Shown here in pieces: positions 1,863-64,000 of a stretch of 64,000 nt of DNA (its first letter is position 1; the number at the start of each line of letters is the position of its first letter). The position numbers and the translations under genes were made by a program. This DNA is from an uncultured Desulfobulbus sp. (GTDB lineage Bacteria; Desulfobacterota; Desulfobulbia; Desulfobulbales; Desulfobulbaceae): the NCBI RefSeq assembly GCF_963664075.1, contig NZ_OY760916.1, positions 3,183,001 through 3,247,000 of the forward strand, read 5' to 3'. The notes beneath the pieces are model-generated. The model was not told the DNA's origin. It worked only from the letters and a program-made list of their open reading frames with translations, and did no database searches.

Positions 1863-2627
1863 TCATTTTTTCTGCAACAGCTTACGCCCACCAAGTATGG
1901 TTTCCAACCATTTAAAGCCGAATTGAAGGAGTGCTTCATCGTCTTGCTTCAGTCGTTTCCGCTCATCTTTGCTCAATTTGAATTGGGCAATAATCTGCTG
2001 TTGTTCACAGTAGTTGCGAAAACCATCGAGATTATAAACGGTCATAAAAGCGAGGCGCTGGTAGGGGCCAGCCTGTCCTTCACCGGCCCAGGGATTAGTT
2101 GCAAAAAAGGCGTCCAATTCGGCCCAGATGTCATTGAGCGTGTTACACTGATGAAGATTTTGGTCACGTTCCCATTGTTTCAGGGTATAGGTCCTGGATT
2201 CAAAATGTCCTTTGCAATAAGGGTGGTGGGTCAAAAAATGATGAACTTTAATTTGCCCCCCCTTCCCAGTGCATTCGAGCCCACGCTCAAGCGGATACGT
2301 TCGACAGGAGGTTGGCCGATTACGGTACACATGACACCCTTCAGCTGTCAAAAAAGGACAGGAACGTGCCTCATCATCGAGAAGTTTCAGACGAAGGCCA
2401 GGGAAAAAGGGATGACTGCCCTCCGTGATCTCAGTATAGCGTTCGATAACCTCACCGCTTGTTATTCCAAGCTGTTTCTTGAGCAGAAGAATATCGTACG
2501 GGTAGAGGGGCAGATGAACATCTCTGCAGCACTTCAAAAAACATGATACCTCTGGATGACAGTGGAAGCTAAACGGTTCTTTGCCTATGGGTTCGCGATC
2601 TTCGGGTATTAAGGATTCGTATTCCAT
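1863..2627 (-). CDS. YkgJ-family cysteine-cluster protein
   Basis: A 254-residue protein with the CxxxCC-RDV-xL-PYDILLLKKQLG pattern near residue 30, then ARSCPFL..GCHVYRNRPTSCRTYPL around residues 90-120. These match the YkgJ (CxxCxxCC) family, predicted to bind Zn or Fe; the biochemical role is unknown. The ATG at 2627 is preferred over the longer frame because codons upstream lie within the terminator hairpin of the preceding rplQ operon. The ribosome binding site is weak. It sits between the alpha operon terminator and the rpsB promoter, so it may be its own unit or rely on read-through. Confidence 0.75.
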   Translation of the reverse strand: MEYESLIPEDREPIGKEPFSFHCHPEVSCFLKCCRDVHLPLYPYDILLLKKQLGITSGEVIERYTEITEGSHPFFPGLRLKLLDDEARSCPFLTAEGCHVYRNRPTSCRTYPLERGLECTGKGGQIKVHHFLTHHPYCKGHFESRTYTLKQWERDQNLHQCNTLNDIWAELDAFFATNPWAGEGQAGPYQRLAFMTVYNLDGFRNYCEQQQIIAQFKLSKDERKRLKQDDEALLQFGFKWLETILGGRKLLQKK

Positions 2628-2635
2628 ATCGTTCA

Positions 2636-2672
2636 CACAAAAAAAGCTGGTATGAAAATTCATACCAGCTTT
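2636..2672 (-). terminator. Rho-independent terminator closing the alpha operon
   Basis: A perfect 14-bp stem (2643-2656 with 2659-2672) with a tiny loop is followed on the minus strand by a run of seven T. It lies 30 bases past the rplQ stop and ends the long ribosomal-protein transcription unit. Confidence 0.92.
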
Positions 2673-2705
2673 AACACGTTCTACAACCAAGGGTTCAGGG
2701 AGAAA

Positions 2706-3092
2706 TTACTCAGCCTCTGTTTCCTCGATAATATCTTCGTAGTCGACGAGCTCCAGGATCGCCATGGGTGCTGCGTCTCCTGCACGATTACCAGTGCGGA
2801 TGATACGGGTGTAACCACCCTGACGGTCAGCATACTGAGTGCTCAACTCATCAAAGAGTTTTGCAACGATATCTTTGGAGCGAATGTAAGACAAGGCCTG
2901 ACGACGAGCGTGCAGGTCGCCACGTTTGCCCAAAGTAATCATTTTCTCCGCAACGCGTCGTGCCTCTTTTGCTTTGGGAACTGTGGTAACAATCCGCTCC
3001 TGCTCGAGCAGTGAGGTCACCATATTGCGGAACATGGCATCACGGTGCGATGCTGTACGGCCTAGTTTCCGACCTGCTTTTCTATGTCTCAT
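2706..3092 (-). CDS. rplQ: 50S ribosomal protein L17
   Basis: L17 lies near the peptide exit tunnel of the large subunit. The 128 residues begin [20 protein letters not shown], the family signature, and continue with the typical [25 protein letters not shown] core. The last residues are an acidic extension. It is the last gene of the alpha operon, behind rpoA, with a strong terminator directly after it. Confidence 0.98.
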
Positions 3093-4200: not shown

Positions 4201-4830
4201 TTACTTGGAATACAACTCGATGATAAGCTGTTCCTGAATTGGCATCGTTATTTCTTCGCGATTTGGCAATGCTTTAACTACACACTGAAACTTAGGCTGG
4301 TCAAGCTCAAGCCAGCTGGGCAGTCCACGACGAACTGCGCCTTCAAGGTTATCAATGATGACCTCGTTTTTCTGATGTTTCTCTTTCAAAGAAATAACAT
4401 CGCCAGCTTTAACCTGATAAGAAGGAATATTAACCTTCTTGCCATTGATCAGAAACAGGTTGTGACGGACCATCTGCCGTGCCTGGGTACGTGAACTTGC
4501 AAACCCGCTCCGAAAAAGCGCGTTATCAAGACGACGCTCGAGCATGATCAGCAGAATCTCACCGGTTACACCTTTGGCGCGCTCGGCTTTCTCGTAATAC
4601 CGGCGGAACTGTGCCTCAAGCATACCATACATCTGCTTGACTTTTTGTTTTTCCCGCAACTGTACAGCGTAGTCGGACACTTTACGAAATTTATTCTGTC
4701 CATGCTGCCCAGGGGCGAAGGAGCGACGCTCAAAGGAACACTTGTCTGAGTAACAACGGTCACCCTTGAGAAACATCTTAAGATTTTCACGTCTGCACAG
4801 CCTGCAGGATGCGCCTGTATATCTAGCCAA
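4201..4830 (-). CDS. rpsD: 30S ribosomal protein S4, zinc-binding form
   Basis: S4 is a primary 16S rRNA binder that starts small-subunit assembly. The protein has 209 residues. Cysteines at 9, 12, 26 and 31 form the zinc-binding N-terminal knuckle (the C+ form). The S4 RNA-binding domain follows with [25 protein letters not shown]. It is placed rpsM-rpsK-rpsD-rpoA-rplQ; in E. coli S4 represses its operon, but no S4-binding pseudoknot was identified here. Confidence 0.98.
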
Positions 4831-54225: not shown

Positions 54226-54312
54226 GCCGAAGTGGCGGAATTGGTAGACGCGCTAGGTTCAGGGTCTAGTTGGGGTTTCCCAGTGGAAGTTCGAGTCTTC
54301 TCTTCGGCACCA
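54226..54312 (+). tRNA. tRNA-Leu (anticodon CAG), integration target
   Basis: An 87-base class II tRNA. Acceptor GCCGAAG/CTTCGGC, D-arm GGCGGAATTGGTAGACGC, anticodon CAG, long variable arm, T-loop GTTCGAGTC and encoded CCA. A P4-type integrase gene begins 207 bases downstream on the same strand, so the tRNA 3' end is the likely attL of the mobile element. Confidence 0.97.
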
Positions 54313-54519: not shown

Positions 54520-55758
54520 ATGCTTACCGCAATAGAAGTTCGCAACGCTAAACCCCAGAAGAAAGCATACAAGCTCACCGACGGTAAAGGCCTTTACCTG
54601 TACATAGCCCCCAGCGGCATGAAAACATGGCGCTACCGCTATACCGTTGCAGGAAAAGAAACTTCCTATGTCATCGGTGAATACCCCACCCTTTCTCTTG
54701 AAGCCGCCCGCAAAGAACGGATGGCACTTCGAGAGAAGGTTAAGGCTGGAATCAACCTTGCCGAAGAACGCCGCCAACAAAAGCAAGCCGTTATCGAGAC
54801 CCAAGAAGAAGCAAAGAAGCTGAAGATCAACAGCTTTGAGACTGTTGCTTGTGAGTGGCACCACCACCGTCAAGCCCGCTGGTCAGCCGGTTACGCCAAA
54901 TCAAACATGAACAAGCTGCGAAACAATGTGTTTCCAGCCATTGGTACCGCACCAGTTGACCAGATAACCCCGCCCATGGTCTTGAAGGTAATTCGAGAGG
55001 TTGAAGCCCGTGGAGCTGGCGAGACTGCAAAAAAATGTCTTGAGATCATGAACGGTGTTTTTCGCTATGCCATCCAAACCGGCTTGGCAACCTACAACCC
55101 GGCGGCCGACATGCGGGGTGTACTCAAAGCCCGCAAGGTGAAGCACCACCCCATGATAAAGCCGGAAGAACTACCAGCTTTCCTGCAGGCCCTCACAAAA
55201 TCTGACGTACACACCACCACCAAGCTTGCTTTACAATTCACCATCCTGACCGCCGCCAGATCCGGCGAGGTACGCGGGGCCACTTGGCTTGAAGTTGACC
55301 TTGAGAAAAAGCTGTGGATCATCCCCGCCGAGCGCATGAAGATGAAAGCGCCTCACGCTGTTCCCCTCTCCAAGCAGGCCATAGCTATTCTAAACCGGCT
55401 CAAAGTTCTGCATGGCAATCAGCCACTACTTTTTCCCGGCATTCACTACCCGGATAAGCCCCTCAGCGAAAACACCATGCTCTTTGCCCTGTACCGCATA
55501 GGCTACCACTCAAAGGCAACCGTGCACGGCTTCCGGGCGCTGTTCAGTACCATAGCCAATGAATCAGGCTGGGACCCGGACGCAATCGAACGCCAACTTG
55601 CCCACAAAGAGAAGAACGCCATCAGGGCCGCCTATCACCGAAGTGAGTACATCCAGGAGCGAACAGAAATGATGCAATGGTGGGCCGACCACCTGCACCA
55701 CTTGGAACACGGTGCGGATATTGTGCCAATAGGAAGAAAAGCAGTAGCCGGAGAATAA
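54520..55758 (+). CDS. int: P4-type tyrosine integrase
   Basis: Site-specific recombinase of 412 residues that integrates mobile elements at tRNA genes. The N-terminal DUF4102-like domain (LTDGKGLYLYIAPSGMKTWRYRY) is followed by the SAM-like and catalytic domains. Catalytic residues fit Arg247 (AARSGEVRG), Lys near 273-275, His336 and Arg339 (HGFR), His362 (LAHKEK) and Tyr372 (AAYHRSEY). GAGAGG lies before the ATG. It points away from the tRNA, the standard layout. Confidence 0.95.
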   Translation: MLTAIEVRNAKPQKKAYKLTDGKGLYLYIAPSGMKTWRYRYTVAGKETSYVIGEYPTLSLEAARKERMALREKVKAGINLAEERRQQKQAVIETQEEAKKLKINSFETVACEWHHHRQARWSAGYAKSNMNKLRNNVFPAIGTAPVDQITPPMVLKVIREVEARGAGETAKKCLEIMNGVFRYAIQTGLATYNPAADMRGVLKARKVKHHPMIKPEELPAFLQALTKSDVHTTTKLALQFTILTAARSGEVRGATWLEVDLEKKLWIIPAERMKMKAPHAVPLSKQAIAILNRLKVLHGNQPLLFPGIHYPDKPLSENTMLFALYRIGYHSKATVHGFRALFSTIANESGWDPDAIERQLAHKEKNAIRAAYHRSEYIQERTEMMQWWADHLHHLEHGADIVPIGRKAVAGE

Positions 55759-57015: not shown

Positions 57016-58260
57016 ATGGCCAAAACATCCCCAAGAAACAACCGTACAATATGTACACCCTTTTGCAATAAAACCTATGTCGATACTGTAGAGTGCCCTC
57101 AGAAATTTCGTGCTCAATTAGATGATATGATAGCCAGATGTCCGGAAATTTTTCCGCTTGAGATCCAGCATGGCTATCGGATGAAAGACAGTTACGTCTC
57201 AATAAGGCTCAACATCCGGATACGACGGATAGAAGTGGAAAATACGAATTTTACCATACGTCCATCATTTGTGATGCCCTATCAAACAGCATTCACCAAA
57301 GATATTGACAACGCCCTGTTTCTACGAAAATTTGATATACCGTTTTGGGCACTTGCACATGTTTTCGGCAGAAATGCATCGTTTTGGTATCGGCTTGAAA
57401 GCCACTTGGGACGATTCAGTATCGTCGGGACTACCATTAAGGAACCGGCCAAACTGCCGGCGCATCTCGTTGCCGACGAAAAGCACACGAAAATACGGGG
57501 CAAAAAGTGCTATATCCCAACAACTGTGGCTGAAGGCTGTATACTCGGTGTCGCCGTTACCGAAAAGGCAGACAATGCCGACCTTGAGCGAGGCTACAGC
57601 ACCTTCAAGCAAGAGGCTCTGGATCTAAAACCGAAGTACTCCCCAAAGACTGTGAATACAGACGGCTGGGCAGCAACCAAAAATGCATTTGGCAACCTTT
57701 TTCCATCGATATGCATCTTGTCCTGTTTTCTGCATATTTACATTAAGATACGCGACAGATCCAAGAAAAAACACAGGGAGCTATTCATCGAGGTGGCAAC
57801 AGCGCTTTGGGAATGTTTTCAAGCCCCCACAAGGCGTTCATTTTCCCAAAAAATCAGAAGACTTGTGGAAGCAGCACAATACGAATCGTATCCTGATGTG
57901 ATTCTAGCCCCTTTGAAAAAGATCAAGAGCAATATCGTTGATTATTCAATGACATACAAGCACAAGGGAAGTCACAGAACAAGCAACATGCTTGACCGGT
58001 TAATGCAGGGAATGGACCGCCACATGTACAATACGAGATATTTCCACGGTTCCCTGGAAGCAGCAGAGCAAAATATTCGGGGCTGGGCGCACATCAAAAA
58101 TTTTGCTCCGCAAAACCCGAAAACGGTGAAACAACATGCTGGATTGAAAAGTCCATCCGAACAGTTGAATGGCCGTCGATATCACGATTGCTGGCTACAG
58201 AACCTTTTGATTTCCTCCTCTCTTGGAGGATTTCGAGGGGCTCCCCTAAATCCGAAATAA
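57016..58260 (+). CDS. Transposase (DDE type, unassigned family)
   Basis: A 414-residue protein filling the insertion sequence; the stop codon lies inside the right terminal repeat. The N-terminal third is basic with a Cys pair. Likely catalytic acids are Asp in LVADEKHTKIRGKK (about residue 158), Asp in TVNTDGWAATK (about 218) and a Glu in GSLEAAEQNIRGW (about 350). The GKK-YIPTTVAEGCILGVAV stretch resembles RNase H-like transposase cores. The family cannot be named from sequence alone. Confidence 0.85.
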   Translation: MAKTSPRNNRTICTPFCNKTYVDTVECPQKFRAQLDDMIARCPEIFPLEIQHGYRMKDSYVSIRLNIRIRRIEVENTNFTIRPSFVMPYQTAFTKDIDNALFLRKFDIPFWALAHVFGRNASFWYRLESHLGRFSIVGTTIKEPAKLPAHLVADEKHTKIRGKKCYIPTTVAEGCILGVAVTEKADNADLERGYSTFKQEALDLKPKYSPKTVNTDGWAATKNAFGNLFPSICILSCFLHIYIKIRDRSKKKHRELFIEVATALWECFQAPTRRSFSQKIRRLVEAAQYESYPDVILAPLKKIKSNIVDYSMTYKHKGSHRTSNMLDRLMQGMDRHMYNTRYFHGSLEAAEQNIRGWAHIKNFAPQNPKTVKQHAGLKSPSEQLNGRRYHDCWLQNLLISSSLGGFRGAPLNPK

Positions 58261-58413: not shown

Positions 58414-58764
58414 ATGAAAGACTTGTGTGCATCAATCCAACGCCACCACGGACAGGCTGATTTTGCCCCGATAACCCGTGTCGATCTCCTCACCCTGGGA
58501 AAGACTCTCGCCATTAACGGCGAGGACCCGTCACCATCAATACCTTGCCATGAAATTGTAACGCAGTTATTCCCCAGATCAGCACACAACATAACAGCCA
58601 TGTGCGGTAAGGAGTTACAAAACGGCAACCTACGCCTTGTTTACCTTCTCCCCGACAATAGGCATATCCTTGCAACCATCACCCCTCCATACACTGTTTT
58701 TTGGGCCACCGACAACGCAACAGATCAAGCCACCTATGGCAATGGTGAGGGGCAGGAAGGTTAA
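58414..58764 (+). CDS. Hypothetical protein before the primase
   Basis: A 116-residue protein. Its ATG overlaps the alpA stop by four bases, and its stop overlaps the primase ATG by one base, so it belongs to the replication operon. No motif was recognised: it has scattered Cys and His residues (LCASIQRHHG, MCGKELQ) but no clear metal-binding pattern, and a Gly- and Gln-rich tail. A replication accessory role is only suggested by position. Confidence 0.7.
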   Translation: MKDLCASIQRHHGQADFAPITRVDLLTLGKTLAINGEDPSPSIPCHEIVTQLFPRSAHNITAMCGKELQNGNLRLVYLLPDNRHILATITPPYTVFWATDNATDQATYGNGEGQEG

Positions 58765-60218
58765 TGTCGTTTACAGAAAAAATCAGAAAGACTCTGAAAG
58801 GCTCTGAATACTGGACTAGGAAAACACGATCAAACAGCAACACCATTCAGGGGCTTACCTGTCCCGTTTGCGGTGATCAGGGCGCGTGGGCTTACTCTTC
58901 AAGCCCCATGTCTATCAACTGTAACCGCATGTCACAGTGCGGGGCACGCACCAAAACTCTTGAACTCTTCCCGGAGATTCGCCAGGACGTTGAACGAGAT
59001 TTTCCAGCTACCAAAGAAGATCCACACCTACCGGCGCGGGAGTACCTGAAATCGAGGGGCCTTTCCCAAGTGCTGACCGGCCTTGAATTCCGTTATCTGA
59101 AAAACGCCAGAAAAACCGGATCGGGGGCAGTGTTGTTCCTGGTGGCCAAGGACTCAGACGGTAAGGAACTTCTGAACGGGAGACTTTTCAACCCACCACC
59201 AGGCGTAGGAAAAACCCATAATATCGGGTCAACCGCTGGTCGGTTCTGGCAACACCCGGAAATGCCCTACGATTCAAACCAGAAGACGTTCATCACCGAG
59301 GGCATTCTTGATGCCCTTTCCTTGCTTGAAATGGGCAAGCAGGCCATTGCCGTTCTTTCTTCCGGCCAGGACCCCGCCAAGATTGATTTATCTTTTTTCA
59401 AGAACCTGGCCCTAGCATTCGACAATGATGAGGCGGGCCACCGTGCTTGCATAAAATGGAAATCTTCTCACCCGGAAGCCGATGTAATCCTTTGCGACCA
59501 GGGGCAAGACTGGAACGACATTCTCAATACTGGACCTATCGCCAACGTCATAGAACTATTAGAAGAATCCCTTCCCGGGTTTCGGAACAATGGAGCATTG
59601 GCCTTGGCAAAGGATGCCACCGAGTACGCCACTCTTTACCACCAGTTCAACAAGCATCCACCAGGCTTGTTTATATTCAACCGATCGACCTATTTCTCTA
59701 CCGTAAAGATCCCGCGCAACGAAGCGGCAGAGCCTTTTGTTGCCGTCTCCCGTTGTATCAGAGGAACAATTAAGGTCCTCAGCTACATTGTAGATCGCAG
59801 CAACCCGGCCAAACCGGAATACCTGTACAACCTGGAAGTACACCCGGCCAAGGGGAAACCGATTGAAGTAACTGCCACCGGTAAGGATATATCAAGCGCC
59901 AGGCCTTTAAACGAATTTCTGCTTTCCTCAGCAAAAATCAATTGGGAAGGCGAACCCAAGGCGGCAACCGCCCTGCAAACCAAAATCACCAGCGACAAAA
60001 CCGCCCCTGAAGTGCTGCAGCTCACCGTCAATGGCTATCAGCCAGAGAGTGGCCACTACATTTTTAATCAGTGGGCGGTCGATATATCCGGCAACCAGGC
60101 CACCCCAAACAAACGGGGGCTGTTCAAGATCGGCCACAATCAATATTTCAGGCCACCGCAGCACGGGGAAAGCAAAGCCATTCCCCCGACTACCATCACG
60201 AAGAAACGAATCAAATAA
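58764..60218 (+). CDS. Toprim primase (N-terminal part of a primase-helicase)
   Basis: A 484-residue frame. The N-terminal zinc finger uses Cys33, Cys36, Cys53 and Cys59 (LTCPVCGDQG and MSINCNRMSQCG), as in DnaG and P4 alpha-type primases. The Toprim catalytic acids are Glu179 (TFITEG) and Asp220/Asp222 (LAFDNDEAG). After a middle region (about 280-480) the frame ends at TAA (60216-60218). The same frame reopens at once into the helicase part, so this is probably one protein split by a nonsense codon. Confidence 0.85.
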   Translation: MSFTEKIRKTLKGSEYWTRKTRSNSNTIQGLTCPVCGDQGAWAYSSSPMSINCNRMSQCGARTKTLELFPEIRQDVERDFPATKEDPHLPAREYLKSRGLSQVLTGLEFRYLKNARKTGSGAVLFLVAKDSDGKELLNGRLFNPPPGVGKTHNIGSTAGRFWQHPEMPYDSNQKTFITEGILDALSLLEMGKQAIAVLSSGQDPAKIDLSFFKNLALAFDNDEAGHRACIKWKSSHPEADVILCDQGQDWNDILNTGPIANVIELLEESLPGFRNNGALALAKDATEYATLYHQFNKHPPGLFIFNRSTYFSTVKIPRNEAAEPFVAVSRCIRGTIKVLSYIVDRSNPAKPEYLYNLEVHPAKGKPIEVTATGKDISSARPLNEFLLSSAKINWEGEPKAATALQTKITSDKTAPEVLQLTVNGYQPESGHYIFNQWAVDISGNQATPNKRGLFKIGHNQYFRPPQHGESKAIPPTTITKKRIK

Positions 60219-60248
60219 ATATACCGGCTCATCCATGAAGCATGGGGC

Positions 60249-61373
60249 ATGAATGGTATCGTTGCCCTTTCCTGGACCGTTGCCGGGTGGTTCGTCAATC
60301 AGGTGAAAGCAGAAACCAACTTCTTCCCTTTCCTCTCCCTGTTCGGAGATCCGGCCAGCGGCAAGAGCGCCCTGGTCACCATGCTGAACAATATTCAGGG
60401 CCGGGAGGGTGAAGGCCTACCCATAACCCAACTGAACACCAAGAAAGGAGCGATCCGCACTATTGGCCAAGTGTCTGGGTTATTCACAGCCTTGCTAGAG
60501 GACAATGAGAGAAACGAAAAAGGATTCGATTACAGTATCATTTTGACCGCCTACAACCGAGGCCCGCTACAGGTACAGGCCTCGTTCTCCAATGACTTGG
60601 CCACCAGAGAAAACCCATTCCTAGGCACCTTGCTTTTCTCGCAAAACCGCGAGCCGTTTAACAGCAAAGCCGAAAAACAGCGGACCATCAGTCTTGAATT
60701 CAAAGTTGAAGATCTCAGTGACAGCACCAGGGCTGCTTATGAGAAGTTGACAGCCATTGATAAACGGGAAATTGCCGGAATCCTGCAGCAGGTGCTTATC
60801 AAAAGGGCACACTTTAAGACCTGGAATAAAGAATATAACTCAGCGCAAACAACACTGCGCCCAATGACCGAGCGCCGGATTCTGGATAACCACGCTCTCA
60901 TTCTGGCCTTTTATCGCCTGTTCTGCTCCTGTTTCGATCTTGCCATCGATCCACAAGTAACATCTTTTATAGCCCAAATCGGGCGGCGTAAATGCGTCAC
61001 CAGTGCAATCAGAAGCACCACCATTGCCGACCATTTTTTCGATGCTTTAGACAGCATCGACATGAAGAACTATCCAACCTCCTACTACATCGACGTAGAG
61101 AAAAAACGTCTTCTAATACACCTGCCCGAAGCAGAAAGGGCCTTAAGAAACTTAAGCCTTGGTATCCAGGTTAACGAGCAGTTTTCCAGGGTATTGCAAG
61201 AACACCCTGCTTTCATCAGAAATGGCCTGAAATTCCGCCACCCCGACAACCCCAAGATTGATAGCTCAGGGCGGCCCGAACAGGTCAAAATGTGGGTTTT
61301 TGACCTGGAATGGTTCATCAAAAACAGCAACTTAGAACCATCTGAAGACAAAGAAAAAGGGGCAGATCAATGA
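60249..61373 (+). CDS. Helicase-like ATPase (C-terminal part of the primase-helicase)
   Basis: Same frame as the primase. From the first ATG after the stop it has 374 residues. Walker A is GDPASGKS at residues 33-40, and FTALLEDNER near residue 85 may be Walker B. The architecture fits the superfamily 3/D5-like helicase half of phage replication proteins. The ten codons between the TAA and this ATG (IYRLIHEAWG) read naturally into it, so the true start may be further upstream. A weak ribosome binding site precedes the ATG. It may work as a separate subunit or be inactive. Confidence 0.75.
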   Translation: MNGIVALSWTVAGWFVNQVKAETNFFPFLSLFGDPASGKSALVTMLNNIQGREGEGLPITQLNTKKGAIRTIGQVSGLFTALLEDNERNEKGFDYSIILTAYNRGPLQVQASFSNDLATRENPFLGTLLFSQNREPFNSKAEKQRTISLEFKVEDLSDSTRAAYEKLTAIDKREIAGILQQVLIKRAHFKTWNKEYNSAQTTLRPMTERRILDNHALILAFYRLFCSCFDLAIDPQVTSFIAQIGRRKCVTSAIRSTTIADHFFDALDSIDMKNYPTSYYIDVEKKRLLIHLPEAERALRNLSLGIQVNEQFSRVLQEHPAFIRNGLKFRHPDNPKIDSSGRPEQVKMWVFDLEWFIKNSNLEPSEDKEKGADQ

Positions 61374-61549
61374 AAACGGCTCAAAATTGGGGCCCCTGGG
61401 GACGCTGCCTTTTTCGCCTGGGGACCGCAAAAAACAACGGAAAATCAAGGCTGGGGACCCTGGGGACCGTGGGGACCCCATTTTTTCACCACTTTAAAAA
61501 TAAAAACAACGCGAAGAGCGGGAAGCGCCTCGCACGCGACAATATATAA
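61370..61549 (+). CDS. Small ORF over the iterons (doubtful)
   Basis: A 59-codon frame whose ATG overlaps the helicase stop by four bases. It reads MKTAQNWGPWGRCLFRLG and includes LGTLGTVGTP, which is simply the translation of three repeats spaced by 9 bases. The protein is basic at the end. The overlap suggests coupling, but the content may only reflect the repeats. Confidence 0.25.
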   Translation: MKTAQNWGPWGRCLFRLGTAKNNGKSRLGTLGTVGTPFFHHFKNKNNAKSGKRLARDNI

Positions 61550-61700
61550 CAGTCCCCAGCGTCCCCATGGTCCCCAGCTATATATAATATATAATAATTA
61601 TAAGTATTTATATAATATATATGTAAGAACTTGAGGAAAAACCTTCAATTTTGGGGACCCCAAAAGCTGATTTGGGGACCCCAAAACACCCCGTGGGGAC
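61397..61700. repeat. Iteron array with AT-rich core, candidate replication origin
   Basis: Eleven copies of TGGGGAC. Forward copies start at 61397, 61419, 61452, 61461, 61470, 61652, 61673 and 61694; reverse copies start at 61552, 61561 and 61570. Triplets are spaced exactly 9, 9 and 21 bases. Between the reverse and last forward triplets lies a run of almost only A and T (61578-61622). It sits directly after the primase-helicase, as the origin does in P4-like replicons. A coding explanation for the spacing (multiples of three) is not excluded. Confidence 0.75.
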
Positions 61701-61782: not shown

Positions 61783-62451
61783 ATGAGATTTTCCGACGCA
61801 ATTGAGCAACTGGCACAGGGAAATGCCCCGATTTTGCCCACTGAGAACCGGCAAAACTGCCTAAATTTTGCCCCAAAAGGAAAAAACACCACCCAACCCG
61901 GAGGCAAAAACACTCCAGGCCCCAAGAACAACAGGCCAAAAGATAGGCGCAACCGCCAGCGACGCCCCCCAAAACCGGAGCGCCTGGCCTTCCTGCAGCC
62001 CTGCCCGCTCTGTTTTGGCCGGTCATTTGTGGTGGGCAATGGTGGCGGATTTTTCTGCACTACCTGTCAACCAGGGATCGAGGGCCACCCGGTTGAAGCC
62101 GCTGGCCAGGCCAGCAAAACAGGCCGCGGATCAATGCCGGTCAATTCTAGATTCGGTCACCTACTCCCTGCAGATCAGCAGCCCGAGCAGGTCACCGAGC
62201 AGCAGCGGCGATACTTCCAGGAGGCCTGGCCATGGATCAAAGAAAACAAGGCTCAACTCCTGAAATCCGGGTGGACCTTGGCCGCCCTGGTCGGCAGGTC
62301 AAAATTCAAATGGCCTTATGGCCGGTGGGGCCTTGCCTGGTTGCCAGTCTGGACCCGCGACCAACTGCAGGTCACCATCAGCGACAAGGGAGCTATCGTT
62401 TTTACCTTCCGCTATTGCGGAAAAACTGTGCAACAAACAGCAAACCCGTGA
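61783..62451 (+). CDS. Hypothetical zinc-ribbon protein
   Basis: From MRFSDAIEQLAQGNAPIL, with AGG seven bases upstream, it has 222 residues. The frame is open back to a TTG inside the iterons and an ATG at 61738, both less likely. The middle holds a basic Pro/Lys/Arg-rich stretch and a CPLCFGRSFVVGNGG..FCTTC zinc ribbon. The C-terminal part (WPWIKENKAQLLKSGWTLAAL and PYGRWGLAWLP) is Trp-rich. The position after the origin suggests a DNA-binding accessory of the element. Confidence 0.7.
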   Translation: MRFSDAIEQLAQGNAPILPTENRQNCLNFAPKGKNTTQPGGKNTPGPKNNRPKDRRNRQRRPPKPERLAFLQPCPLCFGRSFVVGNGGGFFCTTCQPGIEGHPVEAAGQASKTGRGSMPVNSRFGHLLPADQQPEQVTEQQRRYFQEAWPWIKENKAQLLKSGWTLAALVGRSKFKWPYGRWGLAWLPVWTRDQLQVTISDKGAIVFTFRYCGKTVQQTANP

Positions 62452-63556: not shown

Positions 63557-63820
63557 CTACCCTCAGGGTATTAATTAAGTTATACTAAAAAAATTTTTCC
63601 ATTTCTCTTGAATTATCAAGGCATATTGGAATGAAATTGCCTTTCGGCCTCCCCATTCTTTCCATAAGCTTCATGTTATAAAACTCTATAAGCTCCATTT
63701 AAAGTAAATATTTTATTTCTGATCATACTTCAGAATTGTATCATGACCTAAAACTGGATAAAAAACTGTTAAGATATAGGCAATAACGCATATAGCCCAT
63801 TGACTATTAGGATTCAATTT
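63557..63820. other. AT-rich intergenic region before the last gene
   Basis: About 260 AT-rich bases. A TTAGGA-type ribosome binding site lies just before 63821. No clear promoter or RNA was recognised. Confidence 0.4.
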
Positions 63821-64000
63821 ATGTCGCAGGCAATTACAAGAGAGAGACTATCAGACTTACTGGTAGATCCACGTGAGGACCTCGACTTTGAGGCCAAGAA
63901 TTGGCTTGATCTTCAGAATAGCAACGAGGATAAAGCGACATTTGCAAAAGCAGTTTTAGCCCTTGCCAACCATGGCGGCGGCTTTGTTGTTTTGGGCCTT
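63821..64000 (+). CDS. AlbA_2 / Schlafen-type ATP-binding protein, N-terminal fragment
   Basis: Only the first 60 codons are present. They read LVDPREDLDFEAKNWLDLQ and then KATFAKAVLALANHGGGFVVLG, the pattern of the AlbA_2 domain found in Schlafen-like and many mobile-element or defence-associated proteins. The rest lies outside the window, so the activity (nuclease, ATPase or regulator) cannot be judged. Confidence 0.7.
   Translation, partial: MSQAITRERLSDLLVDPREDLDFEAKNWLDLQNSNEDKATFAKAVLALANHGGGFVVLGL

Follow-up and report, generated by a model that had tools for sequence, protein, structure and literature searches.

A TGGGGAC repeat array behind a primase-helicase gene of a Desulfobulbus element: a probable iteron origin whose repeat word differs among relatives

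Our analysis concerns an integrated element in a 64,000-nucleotide stretch of an uncultured Desulfobulbus sp. genome (hereafter the window, whose numbering is used throughout; the genome is one contig of 4,775,109 bases) and, within it, an ordered array of the heptamer TGGGGAC that lies downstream of a primase-helicase gene. This gene (58764-61373) is read on the forward strand in two parts: a primase half (58764..60218), recognized by Pfam (Toprim_2) and PHROG matches, which ends in an in-frame TAA (60216-60218), and, in the same frame, a helicase half (60249..61373) that combines an AAA+ domain with a C-terminal domain, as indicated by a PHROG match and a structure model. The halves cover positions 19-489 and 520-806, respectively, of the PHROG 1139 profile, and the TAA, which falls between the TOPRIM and AAA+ parts, is the only stop within 870 codons. 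An ATG at 60249, ten codons past it, could start the helicase half, which could still be made as a separate protein. The C-terminal domain (61062..61370, forward strand), winged-helix-like in the model and traced by alignment, is the proposed reader of the repeats and includes residues K328 (codon 61230-61232) and R330 (codon 61236-61238). Beyond the array lies a zinc-ribbon-like open reading frame (ORF) with paired cysteines (61783..62451, forward strand) that shows no Pfam or PHROG match.

A motif search of the window recovered 17 matches to TGGGGAC, 11 of them inside 61397-61700 and exactly at the positions and spacings reported in an earlier note on this DNA. The first iteron set (61388..61425) comprises forward copies at 61397 and 61419 along with a degenerate twelfth copy, TGGGGCC (one mismatch), at 61388, which forms a 9-bp pair with 61397. 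It is followed by a forward trio with 9-bp spacing (61452, 61461 and 61470; 61452..61476), a trio of the same spacing on the reverse strand (61552, 61561 and 61570; 61552..61576), an AT-rich stretch assigned to no strand that is the proposed unwinding element (61579..61622), and a last forward set with 21-bp spacing (61652, 61673 and 61694; 61652..61700). The two trios form an inverted repeat (61450-61476 against 61552-61578) that measures 27 nt and is 89% complementary, in keeping with the near-perfect repeat of about 26 bases noted before. The A/T stretch, previously given as pure and as running from 61578 to 61622, is indeed present, but it starts at 61579 and is interrupted by one G at 61604. 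The array was also said to follow the primase-helicase directly, and we find the degenerate copy 15 nt and the first exact copy 24 nt past the end of the helicase ORF at 61373. Simulation rules out chance repeats: 100 shuffles of the whole window gave a mean of 7.84 and a maximum of 16 TGGGGAC per 64 kb, 5,000 Markov simulations (400 nt, local composition) gave at most 2 copies against the 11 observed, and the best count of any 7-mer in 2,000 simulations of the same length and composition was at most 6. This TGGGGAC array is found a single time in the genome, where 13 TGGnnnC trios with 9-bp spacing are found; just three of these repeat one word thrice, namely both trios of the array and one belonging to a second element of the same genome.

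Searches of overlapping sets found homologues of the helicase half in 6 of the 73 family genomes, 5 of the 395 phylum genomes and, by profile, 13 of the 257 order genomes, as well as in 17 genome loci and 7 viral loci of public collections; query scans with L016 and L020 (L numbers are our locus labels) returned no matches, and query A3 gave three loci, all on contigs already known. A repeated word lies downstream of the gene in 22 of the 32 loci examined, four of these having only 4-5 exact copies and two (L012 and L026) seemingly being one and the same element; the array region is cut off in two further loci (L036, L038). The earlier note would have taken absence of the motif from homologous elements as refuting its proposal, and, read literally, this is what we see: among those read, no array but that of the window uses TGGGGAC. 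The relatives do, however, carry related scaffolds made of another word, which strengthens the reading as an origin although TGGGGAC itself is not shared. These words fit the frame TGGnnnC(A): TGGCCAC in the second element of the genome (L008/L063), TGGGTGC in L010/L032, TGGGTAC in L003/L016, TGGCAAC in L066, TGGCTAC in L020 and TGGTGAC in L017, L018, L019 and, less regularly, L004/L065, with variants in L033 and L067. In L015, TGGTTAC is mixed with TGGTGAC; in the first 320 bases after position 4396 of that locus, TGGTTACA occupies the inverted core and TGGTGACA lies toward the edges, so that this array was possibly caught between two words.

Much of the scaffold is kept beneath these differences, in part with spacings that agree to one or two bases. 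Relative to the forward trio, the window copies start at -64 (one mismatch), -55, -33, 0, 9 and 18, then in reverse at 100, 109 and 118, and again forward at 200, 221 and 242, as against -63, -54, -32, 0, 9 and 18, reverse 99 and 108, and forward 201, 222 and 243 in the second element, where the near-palindromic word leaves the strand assignment partly ambiguous. L016, L032 and L017 have the same scaffold with distal parts differing by at most 8 bases; L066, L018, L019 and L033 keep the sets at different distances, and L015 departs from any regular pattern. Three elements, L067, L020 and L065, apparently have the sets in reverse order and the AT-rich stretch on the opposite side (judged by reading, unscored), such that the origin appears to have been inverted as a unit; where an array persists through inversion, a role as RNA or as coding sequence is improbable. 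We reject the alternative of conserved coding repeats, which the earlier note had raised against its own proposal, on the grounds of this apparent whole-unit inversion in three elements and of the placement of the array before the ATG of the next gene.

The earlier note had regarded the array as a possibly new origin; its plan, however, has already been published. Two accounts of phage-inducible chromosomal islands (PICI) and Staphylococcus aureus pathogenicity islands (SaPI) describe a primase and an initiator helicase, sometimes fused, with the origin directly behind them, two iteron sets flanking an AT-rich stretch in that origin, and recognition of the iterons by the C-terminal domain of SaPI Rep (PMC6092414, PMC7581432); the literature covered also includes PMC7466680. 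Compared by layout, the window matches this plan, with a fused primase-helicase gene (here with one in-frame stop), the origin region directly 3' of it and two iteron sets around an AT-rich stretch. Moreover, the closest solved folds of the helicase model are staphylococcal cassette chromosome mec (SCCmec) Cch and SaPIbov1 Rep, with which the modeled protein shares an MCM-like AAA+ fold and a C-terminal domain. Given these folds and the shared origin plan, the array most likely represents a rep-ori of PICI/SaPI type in which one gene encodes both primase and helicase. It departs from the PICI/SaPI precedent in its Desulfobulbales host, in the zinc-ribbon-like gene past the origin and in having no sequence-level match to SaPI Rep; unlike in a typical PICI, tail genes lie beside the module of the second element. 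SCCmec differs in the separate polymerase-type primase partner of its Cch/Cch2 and in a 23-bp repeat region with AAGTG iterons, against about a dozen words on both strands here. The TOPRIM primase-helicases of Peduoviridae (relatives of PHROG 1139) are homologous, although at 24-31% identity over the matched part. Matches were found in 21 phage and 4 plasmid records, and among the seven inspected an array follows the gene in Pseudomonas phage BIBS67 only; there (L076 from 5212) a CCGGAACA array stands past the gene annotated as DNA primase and is perhaps an origin that the annotation lacks.

We accordingly favor, with a probability of roughly 0.84, the interpretation that the array is the iteron replication origin of the integrated element and that its reader is the C-terminal domain of the element's primase-helicase, initiator and repeat pairing like lock and key. 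An iteron-bound origin with an AT-rich unwinding element had been suggested before, and comparison with relatives makes it the best-supported reading. The winged-helix-like domain would bind the repeat words of 7-8 bp, and helicase assembly would take place on the inverted trios and flanking sets, perhaps in the form of two hexamers, which is what has been reported for SaPI Rep; the AT-rich stretch beside the trios would then open and the TOPRIM part prime. In the course of evolution, all repeat copies would change together to another word in a similar scaffold, and the residues that vary with the word lie close to where the strand following the second helix of the domain ends. Binding, strand opening, priming, replication and the privacy of each initiator-word pairing are what we infer from these comparisons.

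The candidate reading residues emerged from an association that is, like the array, its scaffold and the word differences, directly visible in the sequences. Clade A comprises 13 elements, the window, L015, L016, L017, L018, L019, L020, L032, L033, L063, L065, L066 and L067, the last used only as its intact 3' part (the broken G538 pieces being unused). Residue 328 is basic in all seven elements with G at word position 5 (K in the window, R in L017, L018, L019, L033, L065 and L067) and in none of the six without it (I, N, G, I, L, V). It is the sole matching column of the 501 with enough rows, and it falls in the C-terminal domain. The helicases of the window and L032 are 86% identical, as against 51% in the C-terminal part, and the helicase identity minus the C-terminal identity averages -1.7 in six same-word pairs versus +10.0 in 72 different-word pairs, the pairs being non-independent. 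The zinc-ribbon-like ORF lies 3' of the array in 13/13 clade A elements; none of the 149 columns of its protein has a basic residue following word position 5, which speaks against it as the reader. Of the two binding proteins considered in the earlier note, the C-terminal domain of the helicase is therefore the better candidate on the comparative evidence.

A second association was found in distant homologues from Desulfovibrionaceae genomes (30 of 348 genomes of the class); a profile alignment spans the helicase and C-terminal part with a probability of 99.95. Arrays occur in 16 of the 28 loci read, from less than 0.1 to about 3.5 kb downstream (0.6-3.5 kb past the initiator gene in some prophages), and no clear array was seen in eight stretches of about 5-6 kb read as a follow-up, L211, L216, L217 and L224 having been outside the follow-up. 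Fifteen loci were used, leaving out L202 and L198, the latter with two C-terminal domains and mixed words: in L198, the primase-helicase is followed by a separate ORF (2572-3060) whose end encodes another domain of this type, and the mixed-word array comes next. A bounding inverted repeat (TCGGAAAAG or close, and its complement) fixes the word frame in 10 of the 15; the frame was chosen by fit in L205, L207 and L214, and repeat counts supplied the words of L201 and L210. Toward the end of the domain there is a conserved S, and the position immediately before it has a basic residue in 5/5 loci with t6=C and in 0/10 others; this is the only one of 820 columns that matches t6; eight word-position classes were tried, and only t6 gave a perfect column. 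In the tree of these 15, each trait changes three times and 2/2 pairs agree.

The t6 rule was set down before the viral loci were retrieved. These were the best 80 of 115 relatives, of which 79 were analyzed and 35 passed an automatic cluster criterion; 14 rows in eight word groups were used, after 17 word repeats (L256, L283, L285, L286, L293, L294, L296, L298, L300, L301, L304, L306, L307, L310, L311, L314 and L315), three loci judged spurious (L273, L277, L313) and L330, with no protein read and mixed words, had been left out. The groups with t6=C have R (TGTTACA, GGTTACA in L288, where the alignment is ambiguous, and CGGAACA), and those without it have S (TGTAATT), D (GGTAATT), W (GGTTAGA) or H (TGGAAGG, GGTTCAG). 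The bounding sequence is present in four of the eight groups (L263, L267, L269 and L288, L263 being close to L197 of the first distant set); the other four were framed by fit with the rule known and are the weakest part of this set. A scan of 22 rows, from which L206 and six CGGAACA rows were left out, places this column at the top of 662 for t6; the strongest associations there concern t3, which reflect kinship, since t3 differs in two rows of one clade. In the 28-row tree (without L290), t6=C and the basic residue each change seven times, and on average 4.9 of 5 independent pairs on supported branches agree, with none opposing. Residue 328 and the distant key residue had been taken by eye as one column, an equivalence that we dropped when the profile alignment put a gap there. 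A match of residues 328 and 330 to positions -3 and -1, respectively, in the distant set is only a suggestion, based on the invariance of R330 and on position -3 following t4 (rank 9 of 662; 3/3 independent pairs); the -3 column is a gap in the Pseudomonas type.

A number of observations weigh against our interpretation. With regard to the protein and the element, three of five structure models have a mean pLDDT (predicted local distance difference test) of 61-64, and no match to SaPI Rep or Cch was found among PDB sequences (phmmer E<=1, profile E<=10; two chance-like hits). No array is seen downstream in eight of the 32 loci (L011, L013, L014, L021, L022, L023, L025 and L030) or after the gene in six of the seven phage or plasmid homologues inspected. 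Furthermore, the in-frame stop between its halves may have left the primase-helicase of the window unable to act as a single protein; in many relatives the gene is an uninterrupted frame of 816-965 codons, and shorter or broken genes occur in L065 (559 codons), L020 (577), L027 (656), L021 (672) and L067 (with stops). The interruption bears on the view that the window origin is a relic of an element that no longer replicates, which we consider a serious minority possibility: the stop at 60216 speaks for it, as does the missing right end, no right attachment site or second attachment repeat having been found in the 30 kb searched. Against it stand the eleven exact copies on an intact scaffold and the location of the stop between functional halves, the second of which has its own ATG. 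Such a relic is, in any case, compatible with the array being an origin as such.

The remaining adverse points concern the association. The clade A rule was recognized after the fact; some perfect column arose in 158 of 20,000 label shuffles that ignored kinship; on a tree made without the C-terminal domain each trait changes four times, and the three of three independent pairs on supported branches that agree are too few for significance. Outside clade A, one of six loci with a word disagrees (L024, with position-5 G and S at the column), and the rule fails in the distant set (L214). For the latter set, at least one perfect column arose in 42 of 4,000 label shuffles, several word frames were chosen by fit, L288 conforms only if anchored on the conserved S (MAFFT gives S, not R), the 28-row pair test has p of 0.06 to 0.13, and equivalence of the two key columns is not borne out by the profile alignment. 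It could be proposed that the array is an origin whose residue-word association merely reflects shared descent and many comparisons, as the few independent changes, the rules obtained by scanning, the frames chosen by fit and the different columns of the two clades would allow. We regard this as unlikely, though well short of negligible, in that the sole perfect column fell in the C-terminal domain both times (1/501 and 1/820), the later loci agreed (L288 being ambiguous), and related rows differ in both traits (L291/L297, L214/L268, and L200 versus L199, L204 and L208). Contacts between a basic residue and guanine are, moreover, common.

The two other alternatives deny that the array is an origin. 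It might be an operator or silencer of the zinc-ribbon gene or the primase operon, with the 21-bp-phased copies on one face of the helix; that set does end some 80 nt short of the conserved downstream gene's ATG, and one zinc-ribbon column shares no residue between word classes. This is nevertheless improbable: it is a column in the C-terminal domain of the helicase that goes with word position 5, a pattern shown by none of the 149 zinc-ribbon columns, another part of the array faces the downstream gene in the apparently inverted cases, and in some Desulfovibrionaceae prophages 0.6-3.5 kb separate the array from the initiator gene. Least probable of all is a partition (centromere-like) or DNA-packaging site, such as short-repeat arrays mark in other systems, since the scans of the window ORFs recognized no partition or packaging gene beside the array and since its place after the helicase gene and its AT-rich stretch fit the published PICI origins.

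If the array is indeed an origin read by the helicase C-terminal domain, what is likely novel is a natural series in which whole sets of words change while the scaffold is shared and candidate residues for reading them can be named. Origin repeats differ among related replicons, and the joint change of a multi-copy site and its reader is the question addressed here by one natural family, which displays different words on similar scaffolds, close helicases (window and L032), two words in one genome and the mixed array of L015. Such a series would make the recognition code and the cause of its diversification testable with natural domains. Tentatively, and at somewhat less than even odds, we envisage an evolvable code, wherein a short strand of the C-terminal domain reads variable bases singly, about a dozen copies switch together on an unchanging scaffold and distinct words let co-resident elements avoid origin interference; were this so, competition between co-residents or enemies targeting a given word would perhaps be the driver. 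Geminiviruses, which are plant single-stranded DNA viruses with an unrelated initiator, offer a parallel only. In these, according to PMC12548392, iteron positions and repeat pattern are kept while the sequences differ among close relatives. In a phage satellite, the PICI-like element (PLE), the initiator RepA and its iterons likewise form a specific pair, and PMC8263062 and PMC7145576 describe origin changes that let the satellite escape an origin-directed nuclease. Both co-resident competition and origin-recognizing enemies as for PLE (PMC8263062) are possibilities for what drives the change of word.

Among the other features of the element, a tRNA-Leu gene (54226..54312, forward strand, tRNA scan) adjoins the integrase and offers a possible left attachment site; domain matches identify the tyrosine integrase (54520..55758, forward strand) and a transposase-like ORF (57016..58260, no strand assigned). 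Integrases 61-67% identical to that of the window adjoin the same module in L017, L066 and L065. No phage structural genes were recognized among the window ORFs scanned, and the window ends (63800-64000) in the start of a Schlafen/AlbA_2-like gene that scores below the curated cut-off. The module of the second element (L063, 3534-7114) adjoins genes for a tape-measure protein, a weakly matched tail chaperone and a minor tail protein, which points to a prophage or an unusual satellite; nearby (L064, 14882-16608), a DarT-like ADP-ribosyltransferase is encoded beside a macro-domain protein in a toxin-antitoxin-like pair. L021 and L022 display a 7-mer repeat upstream (ATTACAA, TTACAAA; 7 copies), roughly 2.6 kb ahead of where the match ends. 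Lastly, a homology-free search of viral contigs for TGGnnnCA trios gave at least 120 stretches, of which 80 loci were given; tblastn detected no similarity to the element proteins in these 80. Most are one-strand repeats of coding look, and eight are two-strand arrays (L100, L112, L128, L131, L132, L146, L150 and L152) that are perhaps similar origins with other initiators.
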